NCBI RefSeq assembly: GCF_018524365.1
Contig: NZ_JAEKFT010000004.1
Coordinates: forward strand, 124,001 to 188,000
Direction: 5' to 3'
Length of the DNA: 64,000 bases
From: Denitromonas iodatirespirans
GTDB taxonomy: Bacteria > Pseudomonadota > Gammaproteobacteria > Burkholderiales > Rhodocyclaceae
Every line of letters begins with the position of its first letter. Position 1 is the stretch's first letter. Under the pieces are notes generated by a model that worked only from the letters and a program-made list of their open reading frames with translations, had not been told where the DNA came from and ran no database searches. Below, one piece after another: positions 15,880 through 20,153 of the stretch. Made by a program: the position numbers and the translations under genes.

Positions 15880-16785
<906 letters not shown>

Positions 16786-16879: not shown

Positions 16880-17779
16880 ATGCAAAAAGAAAATTCGCCG
16901 GTTTCCCCCGGCGCGGCGAGGTCCGACAAAACCCCCACGCCTTGTCGGGGTACCGACAAAAGCACCCTGCCGCGCGATGCCCGCCTGCCCATCAACCGCT
17001 GCAACCTGCCGGCCGTCATCCTCGGCAGCCTGACCTACCAGCGACATCCCGCCCCGCTGCGGATCGACGGCGTCGAGCAGCTGCACCGGGATCTGTTCCG
17101 ACGGCTAGACGCCGCCCCGCCCGCCGCGCGCGCCGACGTCTTTCGCGACTACATGACCGTCGTATTCCGTCTGCAGCACCCCGAAGACATCGGCTACACC
17201 GGCAACACCGGGCGCGAAGGGCATGGCGGCCGCATCCGCGCCACCTGGGATCGCCTCCTGCGCGGCTGGAGTTTCGATGCCGACCGTCAGGAAGGCGCCG
17301 TGCTCAAGGCCTGGGTCGAGTCGCGCTTCGGCCTCGTGCCACGCTTCCATGGCGCGCCGCTGCGCGATCCGAACGGCGAGGCCTACCGCCGCTATCAAGA
17401 GATGCGCGCCCGCGGCCTGTACGGCACCAATGCCCTCGAAGCCCAACTCGACCTGGTCTATGCCTTTTGCCAGCATGCGCAGGCCAGCCGCCACCGGGCG
17501 ACCCGCTCCATCACGCTCTACCGGGGCATCAACCAGCTGGCCGACCACGAAGTGCTCGACACCGGAGCCAATGGTCACCGTCGCGTGTTGCTCAACAACC
17601 TCAACTCGTTCACCGACAACCGGGATCGCGCGGGCGAATTCGGCGACTACATCCTCACCGCCGACATCCCGGTGCCGAAGCTCCTGTTCCATGACGGGCT
17701 GATGCCGGGCGTCCTGCAAGGCGAGGGAGAGTACTTGGTGATTGGCGGCGTGATCGAGGCCAAGATCACCACCTGGTGA
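16880..17779 (+). CDS. draT: NAD+-dinitrogenase-reductase ADP-ribosyltransferase
   Basis: 299 residues. Inactivates NifH by ADP-ribosylating its arginine using NAD+. Core family blocks are INRCNLPAVILGSLTYQRHP, then SITLYRGINQLADHEVL, LLNNLNSFTDNRDRAGEFGD and GEGEYLVIGGVIEAKI, the last carrying the likely catalytic glutamate. ATG 16880 (MQKENSPVSPG) is the only ATG in this frame upstream of the conserved core that gives a normal length. The choice puts the nifH NifA site inside the draT coding region. Confidence 0.93.
   Translation: MQKENSPVSPGAARSDKTPTPCRGTDKSTLPRDARLPINRCNLPAVILGSLTYQRHPAPLRIDGVEQLHRDLFRRLDAAPPAARADVFRDYMTVVFRLQHPEDIGYTGNTGREGHGGRIRATWDRLLRGWSFDADRQEGAVLKAWVESRFGLVPRFHGAPLRDPNGEAYRRYQEMRARGLYGTNALEAQLDLVYAFCQHAQASRHRATRSITLYRGINQLADHEVLDTGANGHRRVLLNNLNSFTDNRDRAGEFGDYILTADIPVPKLLFHDGLMPGVLQGEGEYLVIGGVIEAKITTW
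16943..16958 (-). promoter_or_regulatory. NifA upstream activator sequence for nifH, inside draT
   Basis: Perfect palindromic TGT-N10-ACA (TGTCGGGGTACCGACA). It lies about 114 bases upstream of the nifH sigma-54 promoter and within codons 22-27 of draT. A second CGACAAAA / CTTGTCGG inverted pair overlaps it. Confidence 0.82.
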
Positions 17780-17806
17780 GCCGCGTGTGAGGATGCCCAC
17801 CCGCGC

Positions 17807-17822
17807 TGTGGCAAACCCCACA
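17807..17822 (+). promoter_or_regulatory. NifA upstream activator sequence for the SIR2-like gene
   Basis: Perfect TGT-N10-ACA (TGTGGCAAACCCCACA), nearly identical to the nifV site. It lies 28 bases after the draT stop. A near-consensus IHF site (CAA-N4-TTGGTT, one mismatch) follows at 17844-17856. Confidence 0.78.
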
Positions 17823-17873
17823 ATGCGGGCCACCACGACACAGCAACCCATTGGTTTACCTGGCTTTCGCCTT

Positions 17874-17889
17874 GGGCCCGGATTTTGCT
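17874..17889 (+). promoter_or_regulatory. Sigma-54 promoter of the SIR2-like / hemerythrin unit
   Basis: GGGCCC-GGATT-TTGCT: perfect -12 half, GG-N10-GC spacing, weaker -24 half. It ends 36 bases before the start codon. An alternative at TGGCTTTCGCCTTGGG lacks the essential GC at -12. Confidence 0.65.
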
Positions 17890-17925
17890 CCTTAGGCACC
17901 ACGCATCTCTTGTGGAGCCAAACCC

Positions 17926-18792
17926 ATGCCCCCCGACCTCTACGACACCCTGCAGGCCGGCCTGGCCGACGGCAGCATCGTGCCCTACCTGGGGCCCGGC
18001 GTTCTTGCCGACGTCACCCAGGTCGACAGCGCGGTCCGCATCCCCGCCGACAGCGATTCGTTGATCCTGGCCATGAACGATGGCCGCCCGATGGCCCCGA
18101 AGTTGATGTACGAATTTCCACGCGCCGCGATGAACATCGAACTCAAGCGCGGGCGCAGCGCCGTGACCCGCTTTCTGACACGCACCTACGGCGAAACCGC
18201 CTGGACCCGCGGCGCCGTGCATGAGTGGCTCAAGGCCCTCGCCCCGCGCTACGTGGTCGACATCAACCGCGACACCCAGCTGCAGGACAGCTACGCGCAC
18301 ACCCCGCACAACCTGATCGTCGGCATCGCCCGCATGGCCGGCACCGCCTTCCGCTACAAGCTCTACCGCTGGGACGGCAGCGCCTACCACCCGACCGAAG
18401 CGCTCGACCTGGCGCTGCCGATCCTCTTCAAGCCCATGGGCACCCCGCAGCCGGAGGCCAGCTACATCGCCTCCGACGCCGACTATGTCGACTACATCAC
18501 CGAGCTCATGGGCGGCTTCGCCATTCCGCCGCAGCTCAAGGCCTTGCGCGCCGGCAAACGCTACCTGCTGATGGGTTTGCGCCTGAACCGGGACACCGAG
18601 CGCATGGTGATGGCCGATATCGTCTACAACGCCGGCACCCCGACCGGCTGGATCCTGCTGCCGGACGCCAACGCCAAGGAACGGCGGTTCTGCCAGAAGC
18701 TCGGCCTGCAGATCATCGACAGCGACATCTTCACCTTCATCGCGGGCACCCAAACGGCCCGCCCCGCGCTTGCGCAGGTCCATCCATGCTGA
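17926..18792 (+). CDS. SIR2-like (NAD-binding fold) protein, probably catalytically degenerate
   Basis: 288 residues. Landmarks match the bacterial SIR2-2 fold. IVPYLGPGVL (18-27) corresponds to the nucleotide-binding GAG loop. APRYVVDINRD (106-116) corresponds to the TTNYD strand. LFKPMGTP (167-174) corresponds to the K-L-H-G catalytic segment, followed by SDADYVDYITEL. YLLMGLRLNRD (213-223) matches the FLGYSLxD block. The expected catalytic histidine is Met171, so NAD binding without hydrolysis is likely. A GGAG site precedes ATG 17926. It follows draT and overlaps the hemerythrin gene. Role unknown; a link to the NAD-using DraT switch is inference. Confidence 0.75.
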   Translation: MPPDLYDTLQAGLADGSIVPYLGPGVLADVTQVDSAVRIPADSDSLILAMNDGRPMAPKLMYEFPRAAMNIELKRGRSAVTRFLTRTYGETAWTRGAVHEWLKALAPRYVVDINRDTQLQDSYAHTPHNLIVGIARMAGTAFRYKLYRWDGSAYHPTEALDLALPILFKPMGTPQPEASYIASDADYVDYITELMGGFAIPPQLKALRAGKRYLLMGLRLNRDTERMVMADIVYNAGTPTGWILLPDANAKERRFCQKLGLQIIDSDIFTFIAGTQTARPALAQVHPC

Positions 18793-19187
18793 CCGCAACC
18801 GACAGGGCCGGGCATGCCCTCGGCGTGACGGAAATGGATGACACGCACCGGACCTTCGTCGGCTACCTTGACGCGCTGGCCAAGGCTTCCGAGGCGGACT
18901 TTCCGGGTCTCTTCCACCAGCTGCTCGGCCACACTCGCAAGCACTTCGAGCGCGAAACGCAGCTCATGCACGAATGCAGCTTTCCGGCCATCGCCGAGCA
19001 TGGCGCCGAACACGCCCGCGTACTGGCCGACCTCACGCACCTTGCGATCCGGGTTCAGCAAGGCAACCTCGTGATGGCCCGCACCTATGTCTCTGGCCTG
19101 CCGGACTGGTTTCGACACCACCTCGCCACCATGGATTCGGCCCTCGCCGCCCGACTCAAGGCACACGCGACGCACCAGGTTCCGTGA
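18786..19187 (+). CDS. Bacteriohemerythrin
   Basis: 133 residues. All likely di-iron ligands are visible: His21 (MDDTHRTF), His53 and Glu57 (HFERE), His72 and His76 (EHGAEH), His112 and Asp117 (HLATMD). Such proteins bind O2 reversibly. It overlaps the SIR2-like gene by seven bases, so the two are co-translated and share the NifA/sigma-54 promoter. A role in sensing, buffering or delivering oxygen near nitrogenase is plausible. Confidence 0.88.
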   Translation: MLTATDRAGHALGVTEMDDTHRTFVGYLDALAKASEADFPGLFHQLLGHTRKHFERETQLMHECSFPAIAEHGAEHARVLADLTHLAIRVQQGNLVMARTYVSGLPDWFRHHLATMDSALAARLKAHATHQVP

Positions 19188-19235
19188 TCGCAGCCGGGCA
19201 CCGCGTATCGATGCTAGGCGTGGTGACGGGTGGGC

Positions 19236-20153
19236 TTAGCGCCGCGACACGCACGATGCCAGGCGGATGGCCTGCAGGCGACAAGCGGCGTGGGTCGCCG
19301 GGTCGAGCGCGGCAAGCCAGCGTTGGGGAATGCCACGGCGGCCGATGCGCGCCCCCATCAGCATGCCGACGATGGCACCGGTGGTGTCGGCGTCGCCGCC
19401 GCGATTGACCACGTCCACCAACCCCGCTTCGAAATCGTCGTGTTCGCCCAGGGTCTGCACCACGGCGTGCACGGTGTCGACGATGTAAGCGCTCGGATTG
19501 TCGACACGCCGCTCGGGCGGCACGAATACCGGGTGGCGGGTGAACAACATGTCGATGGCGCGAAGGGCGTCTGTCGGCCGACCGGCAAGGCCGGCATGGA
19601 TGAGCGCAATGAGGCACTCGCAGGCGGCGTCGGACAGCCGGTTGTGATGGGTGACATGCGCCTGGGCGCGATTGGCCGCGGCAATGGCCTCAGGCGGCAG
19701 GCCAAAGGTGGCCAGGGCCACCGGCAGCAGGCGCATGGCGGCGCCGTTGCCGGCATCGTGTTCGGATTCGGGTGCGACCGGGTCGCCGGTACGTCGCCAG
19801 GCGATGAGGTTGCGGCGCACGGTGTTGCCGATGTCCACCGGCTTGGCGCGCATCCAGGCGTCGAAGGCGCGGGCGCAGGCCTCGGGCACCACCTGGCCGT
19901 CATGGGCGAGAATGGCCTCGCCGAGCGCGAGGGTCATGGTGGTGTCGTCGGTGACCGCGCCGGCCTTGAGCTTCAACCAACCGCCGCCGACGATGTGCTT
20001 GTGCACGCCGTATCGGTCTGCGATCTCGCGTGGCGTCATGAACTCGACCGTAGCGCCCAGCGCATCGCCGACCGCCAGGCCGAGATAGGCGCCGACGGCG
20101 CGGTCGCGCAAGGTGTCAGGGTGTCTGCCCGGAGCTGTCGGGTGCGTGGACAT
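19236..20153 (-). CDS. draG: ADP-ribosyl-dinitrogenase-reductase glycohydrolase
   Basis: 305 residues. Removes ADP-ribose from NifH and restores activity. Di-manganese site residues are in AVTDDTTMTL and RGGDADTTGAIVGML. N-terminal GAYLGLAVGDALGATVEF is the ADP-ribosylglycohydrolase signature. It converges on the hemerythrin gene from the opposite strand. No sigma-54 promoter was found upstream; the preceding gap holds REP-like repeats. Confidence 0.95.
   Translation of the reverse strand: MSTHPTAPGRHPDTLRDRAVGAYLGLAVGDALGATVEFMTPREIADRYGVHKHIVGGGWLKLKAGAVTDDTTMTLALGEAILAHDGQVVPEACARAFDAWMRAKPVDIGNTVRRNLIAWRRTGDPVAPESEHDAGNGAAMRLLPVALATFGLPPEAIAAANRAQAHVTHHNRLSDAACECLIALIHAGLAGRPTDALRAIDMLFTRHPVFVPPERRVDNPSAYIVDTVHAVVQTLGEHDDFEAGLVDVVNRGGDADTTGAIVGMLMGARIGRRGIPQRWLAALDPATHAACRLQAIRLASCVSRR

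Follow-up and report, generated by a model that had tools for sequence, protein, structure and literature searches.

A nif-linked, catalytically degenerate SIR2-like protein, probably PnfA, in Denitromonas iodatirespirans

The gene at 17926–18792 (plus strand) of the analysed window, a stretch of 64,000 nucleotides from the Denitromonas iodatirespirans genome, encodes a nif-linked, catalytically degenerate SIR2_2 protein of 288 aa (31.9 kDa), which belongs to a branch of relatives called here branch A. It is proposed, with moderate confidence, that this protein is the local PnfA, a putative pseudo-sirtuin of the nif regulon that keeps nitrogenase active at a post-transcriptional stage during respiration and outside the DraT/DraG system, perhaps by nucleotide binding. 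The gene and its phenotype are already published; the reading of the product as a pseudo-sirtuin, and the joining of branch A with a second nif-linked branch, B, did not turn up in a literature search that covered few papers of subscription journals.

The open reading frame placed at these coordinates by the first-pass annotation is real: it runs from ATG to TGA and has a third-position GC of 0.92. An antisense ORF spans the same place. In the window, nifKDH are located on the minus strand, followed by draT, the pnfA-like gene, and a bacteriohemerythrin gene on the plus strand, and then by draG and nifQ on the minus strand. The nifH gene (15880–16764, minus strand), the first of the divergent nifHDK, shows 86–100% identity to the same gene in related loci over the matched stretches. 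The draT (16880–17779, plus strand; PF07357, E 3.3e-93) and draG (19236–20153, minus strand; TIGR02662 over cut-off) genes are considered neighbours and were not judged functional parts. The gene, described earlier as lying directly after draT, begins 146 nt beyond the end of draT. The whole genome, searched with the protein and with PF13289, returned a single match to each.

Upstream of the gene there is a NifA activator site, TGT-N10-ACA (17807–17822, plus strand), and a sigma-54 promoter core, GG-N10-GC, ending TTTTGC (17875–17888, plus strand). The activator site recurs in 74/79 homologous upstream regions (shuffle mean 3.25) and the core, as GG-N8-T(T/C)GC, in 77/79 (shuffle mean 13.8). 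The ordered pair is found in 73/79, against a shuffle mean of 0.25; these 79 regions, from the loci among 80 that had enough upstream sequence, are related sequences and not independent tests. The earlier claim that the gene has its own NifA/sigma-54 promoter is thus borne out, and such sites are also a trait of the PnfA family. With this conserved NifA–sigma-54 pair upstream of it, the gene appears to have a promoter separate from that of draT. A scan of 17700–19300 for sigma-70 promoters and intrinsic terminators found none.

The bacteriohemerythrin (18786–19187, plus strand; PF01814 E 2.4e-10 and TIGR02481 E 4.6e-18, both over cut-off) had been called fused by overlap to the SIR2-like protein. 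This description does not hold, since there are two separate ORFs, and the TGA at 18790–18792 and the ATG at 18786–18788 give only a 7-nt overlap. Such an arrangement suggests that the pnfA-like gene is probably co-translated with the oxygen-binding hemerythrin in this genome, and the overlap fits an oxygen-related role. The tie is local, because only 39/73 loci with sufficient flank have a hemerythrin no more than 1.5 kb downstream, and 5 have one at 120 nt or less. Other conserved genes were noticed near the relatives. A protein of 185–190 aa, U190 (L034:6861–7430 and counterparts), was matched in 45/80 loci, and in 33 of these it follows the pnfA-like gene at a distance of at most 150 nt. 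Pfam, NCBIfam, and the fold search (E ≤ 1e-3) returned no match for it, and it thus offers no clue to function; the window, searched for U190, has no match, and the pnfA-like gene overlaps with hemerythrin there instead. A small Rieske-type [2Fe-2S] protein follows hemerythrin at L034:7842–8219, with matches in 12/80 loci.

The SIR2-like character of the protein, proposed earlier from its letters, is supported by several lines of evidence. Pfam SIR2_2 (PF13289) scores 26.9 bits against a gathering cut-off of 24.5, and the same family is matched by 49/49 branch-A (E ≤ 1e-3) and 17/17 branch-B aligned proteins. The AlphaFold model built with the 49-row alignment as input has a pLDDT of 91.6 and a pTM of 0.89. 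The first-pass annotation had recommended a structure prediction against SIR2 proteins, and an unrelated fold was not seen: Foldseek gave 94 PDB matches at E ≤ 1e-3, the top one being the SIR2 domain of DSR2 (E 1.8e-9, TM 0.61). The best 50 of the 94, which include KomC and ThsA, are defence proteins, with no deacetylases among them. Searching the PDB by sequence, with the protein and the profile as queries, returned no hit at E < 0.05, and SIR2 was reached by the fold search only; no match at E ≤ 1e-3 came from the viral fold library. The Pfam score above the gathering cut-off and the SIR2 fold place the protein in the SIR2_2 fold family.

In defence SIR2 proteins such as DSR2, ThsA, and KomC, an Asn and a His have catalytic roles. 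PDB titles include an H171A mutant of DSR2. The profile–profile alignment and family-wide residue counts agree with the earlier description of the protein as catalytically degenerate. The degenerate nucleotide loop VPYLGPGV is present as described (residues 19–26; 17980–18003, plus strand), and its G23 is found in 86/86 branch-A and 18/18 branch-B rows. The strand read earlier as VDINRD corresponds to residues 111–116; within DINRD (residues 112–116; 18259–18273, plus strand), N114 aligns with the catalytic Asn and D116 with the Asp of TTN(Y/F)D. The segment KPMG (residues 169–172; 18430–18441, plus strand) aligns with K-x-H-G, so that Met171 stands at the position expected for the catalytic His, as had been claimed. 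The last feature, a terminal block called SLxD-like, has a counterpart to the C-terminal GxS-x-D block in GLRLNRD (residues 217–223; 18574–18594, plus strand) by profile alignment, but the resemblance is weak.

The residue counts cover 86 branch-A rows (84 distinct, one being the copy from the window) and 18 branch-B rows. In branch A the catalytic Asn is kept in 86/86 rows and the His in 0/86 (Met in 82, Leu in 2, Thr in 2), and N114, D116, K169, and G172 are all invariant. In branch B it is the Asn that is replaced, by Trp in 18/18 rows, and His is kept in 8/18. Both residues together occur in 0/104 rows (102 distinct) when the branches are pooled, whereas a loose motif search, counted by hand, found both in 14/19 ordinary SIR2_2 control loci, one of which (L135) had a mis-picked open frame. 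This control consists of the SIR2_2 loci without the hit from the window and three nif-type ones (L133, L136, L141). The 18 canonical SIR2_2 proteins used for the profile alignment and the tree were chosen by motif, and are therefore of no use as a control. Against these 18, hhalign gave E 5.4e-4 but a probability of only 30% for branch A, and E 2.4e-10 with 96.8% for branch B. Conservation is high at the glycines and aspartates of the loop and pocket. The protein has only two Cys, so a four-Cys zinc site is absent. The Asn–His pair of catalytic sirtuins and SIR2 NADases is thus broken in the pnfA-like protein, for which we infer a loss of catalysis, and some branch-B proteins, those with His, could retain chemistry.

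The two branches belong to a single nif-linked clade. Profile alignment of A against B gave E 6.9e-35 over 267 columns with a probability of 99.9%. In a tree of 57 rows, A and B join in a common branch (100/99) that excludes 18 ordinary SIR2_2 proteins, and each also forms a single group (100/98 and 98/98); several of the ordinary proteins are on long branches. The rows were 23 of 81 branch-A proteins, chosen by hand, 16 of 18 branch-B proteins (two near-copies omitted), and the 18 ordinary ones. Of 422 relatives the best 80 were kept, and alignment A1, the profile used in the surveys, combines 48 of these with the window protein. Branch B occurs in sampled genomes and on plasmids, where 72 records were found, 70 of them from Rhizobium, Sinorhizobium, Mesorhizobium, or Bradyrhizobium; all 72 are below 60% identity to the window protein, and the 40 listed are at 26–28%. 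In 13/13 branch-B loci examined in sampled genomes (of 15 carriers), nifT is located upstream on the same strand and nifB lies on that strand too, and nifT and nifB are also upstream in 4/4 annotated plasmid records examined. For branch A, 4 of 5 sampled-genome loci examined show nif genes, and L111 shows only hemerythrin. The branches were never matched in one genome among 21 + 24 carriers in two surveys made with the A1 profile; in the organism's own family, 19 genomes carry A, 5 carry B, and none carries both, which suggests that the branches replace one another. A second piece of the same kind was observed in G166, G748, and G774. The branch-B copy at L154 (G591:C12) contains an in-frame TGA and is possibly decaying, or the TGA is a sequencing fault. 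In an additional sample of 289 genomes of another class (that of G122), branch B was matched in 7, one of them by a weak partial match.

The distribution of the gene follows nitrogen fixation. Among 397 Pseudomonadota genomes, 21 carry it (6 branch A and 15 branch B, assigned by score), and nif genes are present in 21/21 of these, recognised by nifD in 19 and by NifE-level matches in two (G068, G209). The nifD model matched 75/397 genomes at E ≤ 1e-3, 45 of them over the cut-off, and these 45 with G068 and G209 are the 47 nif genomes considered. The organism's own family, with 61 genomes, has 24 carriers (19 A, 5 B) and 26 genomes with nifD matches (25 over the cut-off); 23 have both, that is, 23/24 carriers have nifD and 23/26 nifD genomes have the gene. 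The gene thus shows the nif linkage and confinement to diazotrophs that characterise the PnfA family, with one exception, G780. That assembly, of about 320 contigs, has a pnfA-like gene and no nifD or DraT match; either a nif contig is missing or the gene was kept without nif. The gene is nevertheless dispensable for nitrogen fixation, since 26/47 nif genomes of the phylum sample and 3/26 nifD genomes of the own family are without it.

The first-pass annotation had described the protein as coupled to the DraT nitrogenase switch and had suggested a genome survey of co-occurrence with draT. In this survey DraT was found in 28/47 nif genomes, 9/21 among carriers (3/6 of branch A, 6/15 of branch B) and 19/26 among non-carriers, and is thus missing in 12/21 carriers (3/6 and 9/15, respectively). 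DraT is therefore not enriched among nif-bearing carriers; the association is negative (Fisher p 0.04, uncorrected for kinship). In the own family DraT is present in 21/23 carriers with nifD and in 3/3 nifD genomes without the gene. Branch A of this family goes the other way, with DraT in 18/18 carriers with nifD against 6/8 other nifD genomes, by a hand tally that is too small to decide. Over the phylum, then, the pnfA-like gene follows nif and not draT, and in the own family branch A is found together with draT. At the level of loci, at least one of six nif/dra genes was found in the examined flank in 59 of 80, and none in 21. Among 40 loci whose flank reaches nifH, draT lies between nifH and the pnfA-like gene in 36, in 12 of them less than 300 nt away; it does not in L062, L064, L068, and L076. 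For these four loci and the 21 whose flank shows no nif/dra gene, DraT was found in 20 of the 25 genomes behind them, whose completeness is not given: it is present for L062, L064, and L068, and absent for L076, L015, L029, L044, and L077.

The gene is probably the orthologue of pnfA (PST1325) of Pseudomonas stutzeri A1501, judged by position, size (31.7 vs 31.9 kDa), SIR2 label, and listed homologues. Passages of the original report describe pnfA as divergent from nifH, encoding a 31.7-kDa protein, and dependent on NifA and sigma-54, with homologues only in diazotrophs, Azoarcus and Dechloromonas among them, that form two subfamilies (PMC2820453). According to the same passages, a non-polar mutant retains 23% nitrogenase activity with unchanged nifH transcription and is complemented; its defect is microaerobic, it fixes no nitrogen with nitrate as acceptor, it equals the wild type under plain anaerobic conditions, and it still grows on N-free medium (PMC2820453). 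They also state that the authors did not find DraT and DraG in A1501, and report on-off switching of nitrogenase nonetheless (PMC2820453). In excerpts of later papers, PST_1325 is labelled “SIR2 family protein” in a table (PMC11332353) and PST1325 is among the genes expressed in engineered E. coli (PMC6053447). Other nif-linked genes of SIR2 type appear in further excerpts. Rcc03262 of Rhodobacter capsulatus is the last gene of the nifB1-rcc03265-nifZT-rcc03262 operon, and its product was not found in the nifA mutant proteome (PMC6925177). ZMO1821 of Zymomonas mobilis is an induced gene of the nif island for whose product a deacetylase function was suggested (PMC8600466), and a figure legend shows nifT followed by a SIR2-like protein in Rhodovulum operons (PMC9412634).

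It is proposed that NifA and sigma-54 would switch on the gene from its own promoter; the sites are seen in the window, and dependence is experimental for A1501 pnfA. The product, with its complete SIR2_2 fold and broken Asn–His pair, would act after nif transcription and keep Mo-nitrogenase working during low-oxygen or nitrate respiration, as was shown for its likely orthologue in A1501, and would not act as part of DraT/DraG. In the most likely step, the conserved Rossmann pocket may bind a nucleotide, e.g., NAD(H) or ADP-ribose, and so read out the redox or energy state; through contact between proteins, the bound form might then support nitrogenase or the supply of electrons to it. A broader version can be put forward only tentatively: a dead, nucleotide-sensing pseudo-sirtuin of the proteobacterial nitrogenase, from which two nif-linked branches descend, each having lost a different half of the catalytic pair, would report NAD(H)/ADP-ribose status to nitrogenase or its electron donors as a post-translational layer apart from DraT/DraG.

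Other explanations must be weighed against this proposal. A maturation or scaffold factor, in which the SIR2 fold would merely bind NifH, NifDK, or a cofactor-assembly protein and have no nucleotide ligand, agrees with the constant company of nifT and nifB in the branch-B loci and plasmid records examined, and with the low activity of the A1501 mutant despite normal nifH transcription (passages of PMC2820453). However, the wild-type behaviour of that mutant in plain anaerobiosis, described in the same passages, is unexpected for a general assembly factor, and the high conservation of the loop and pocket glycines and aspartates also counts against it; this explanation is doubtful. It is less probable still, and indeed unlikely, that the protein is an active sirtuin-type deacetylase or NADase that uses another residue and acts on Nif proteins, as proposed for ZMO1821. 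The SIR2 fold, the four invariant branch-A residues, the His of 8/18 branch-B rows, and the induction of ZMO1821 within the nif island argue for it. Against it stand the loss of His throughout branch A and of Asn throughout branch B, the two Cys, the defence proteins that make up the best 50 of 94 structural matches, and the excerpts of PMC8600466, which contain no activity test of ZMO1821.

The model of the first-pass annotation, in which the protein senses NAD or ADP-ribose and tunes DraT and DraG, draws on the position of draT between nifH and the gene in most loci that reach nifH, on draG close by in the window, and on the DraT found in every own-family branch-A carrier with nifD and in 20/25 genomes behind the selected branch-A loci. 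Nevertheless, more than half of the phylum carriers, including half of those of branch A, have no DraT, which is present in 19/26 nif genomes without the gene; the strong phenotype of the likely orthologue arises in A1501, where DraT/DraG were not found according to passages of PMC2820453; and Z. mobilis has a SIR2-like gene in its nif island, whereas draT and draG have not been annotated in that organism according to excerpts of PMC8594446. This sensor model is very improbable, and coupling to DraT as a general explanation is rejected on co-occurrence and on the published phenotype. An anti-phage SIR2 defence system was also considered and rejected, with 0 PADLOC families matched and a nif context.

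If the protein is a nif-regulon pseudo-sirtuin, as is preferred here, a published loss of nitrogenase activity without a mechanism gains a fold and a prediction, namely no sirtuin chemistry and possible ligand binding. What is very likely pnfA would be joined in one clade with the SIR2 genes linked to nifT in rhizobia and other bacteria, and the deacetylase reading of the Z. mobilis gene would be weakened, if that gene belongs to branch B. A candidate is also offered for diazotrophs that switch nitrogenase off without DraT/DraG, although a link of pnfA to the switching in A1501 is only a possibility.

Among known systems, PnfA (PST1325) is the most similar: divergent from nifH, with its own NifA site and sigma-54 promoter, about 32 kDa, diazotroph-only homologues, and a SIR2 label. 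In the window, however, draT sits between nifH and the gene, hemerythrin overlaps the gene, and the passages of the 2010 report point to a resemblance of PnfA to UspA/ETF, not to SIR2 (PMC2820453). The nifT-linked SIR2 proteins (Rcc03262, ZMO1821, and the rhizobial plasmid genes) are likewise nif-cluster SIR2_2 proteins, and the plasmid and sampled-genome examples form the sister branch B; they differ in having Trp for Asn, His in only part of the rows, and a place beside nifT and nifB, and Rcc03262 and ZMO1821 are placed here by their published description. DSR2, ThsA, and KomC share the fold at a TM of about 0.6, but identity is 10–15% among the matches listed, and the pnfA-like protein has no PADLOC match. 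The components of the DraT/DraG switch are encoded by neighbouring genes in many related loci; they belong to other protein families, whereas the pnfA-like gene has promoter sites to itself and is distributed in line with nif and not with draT.
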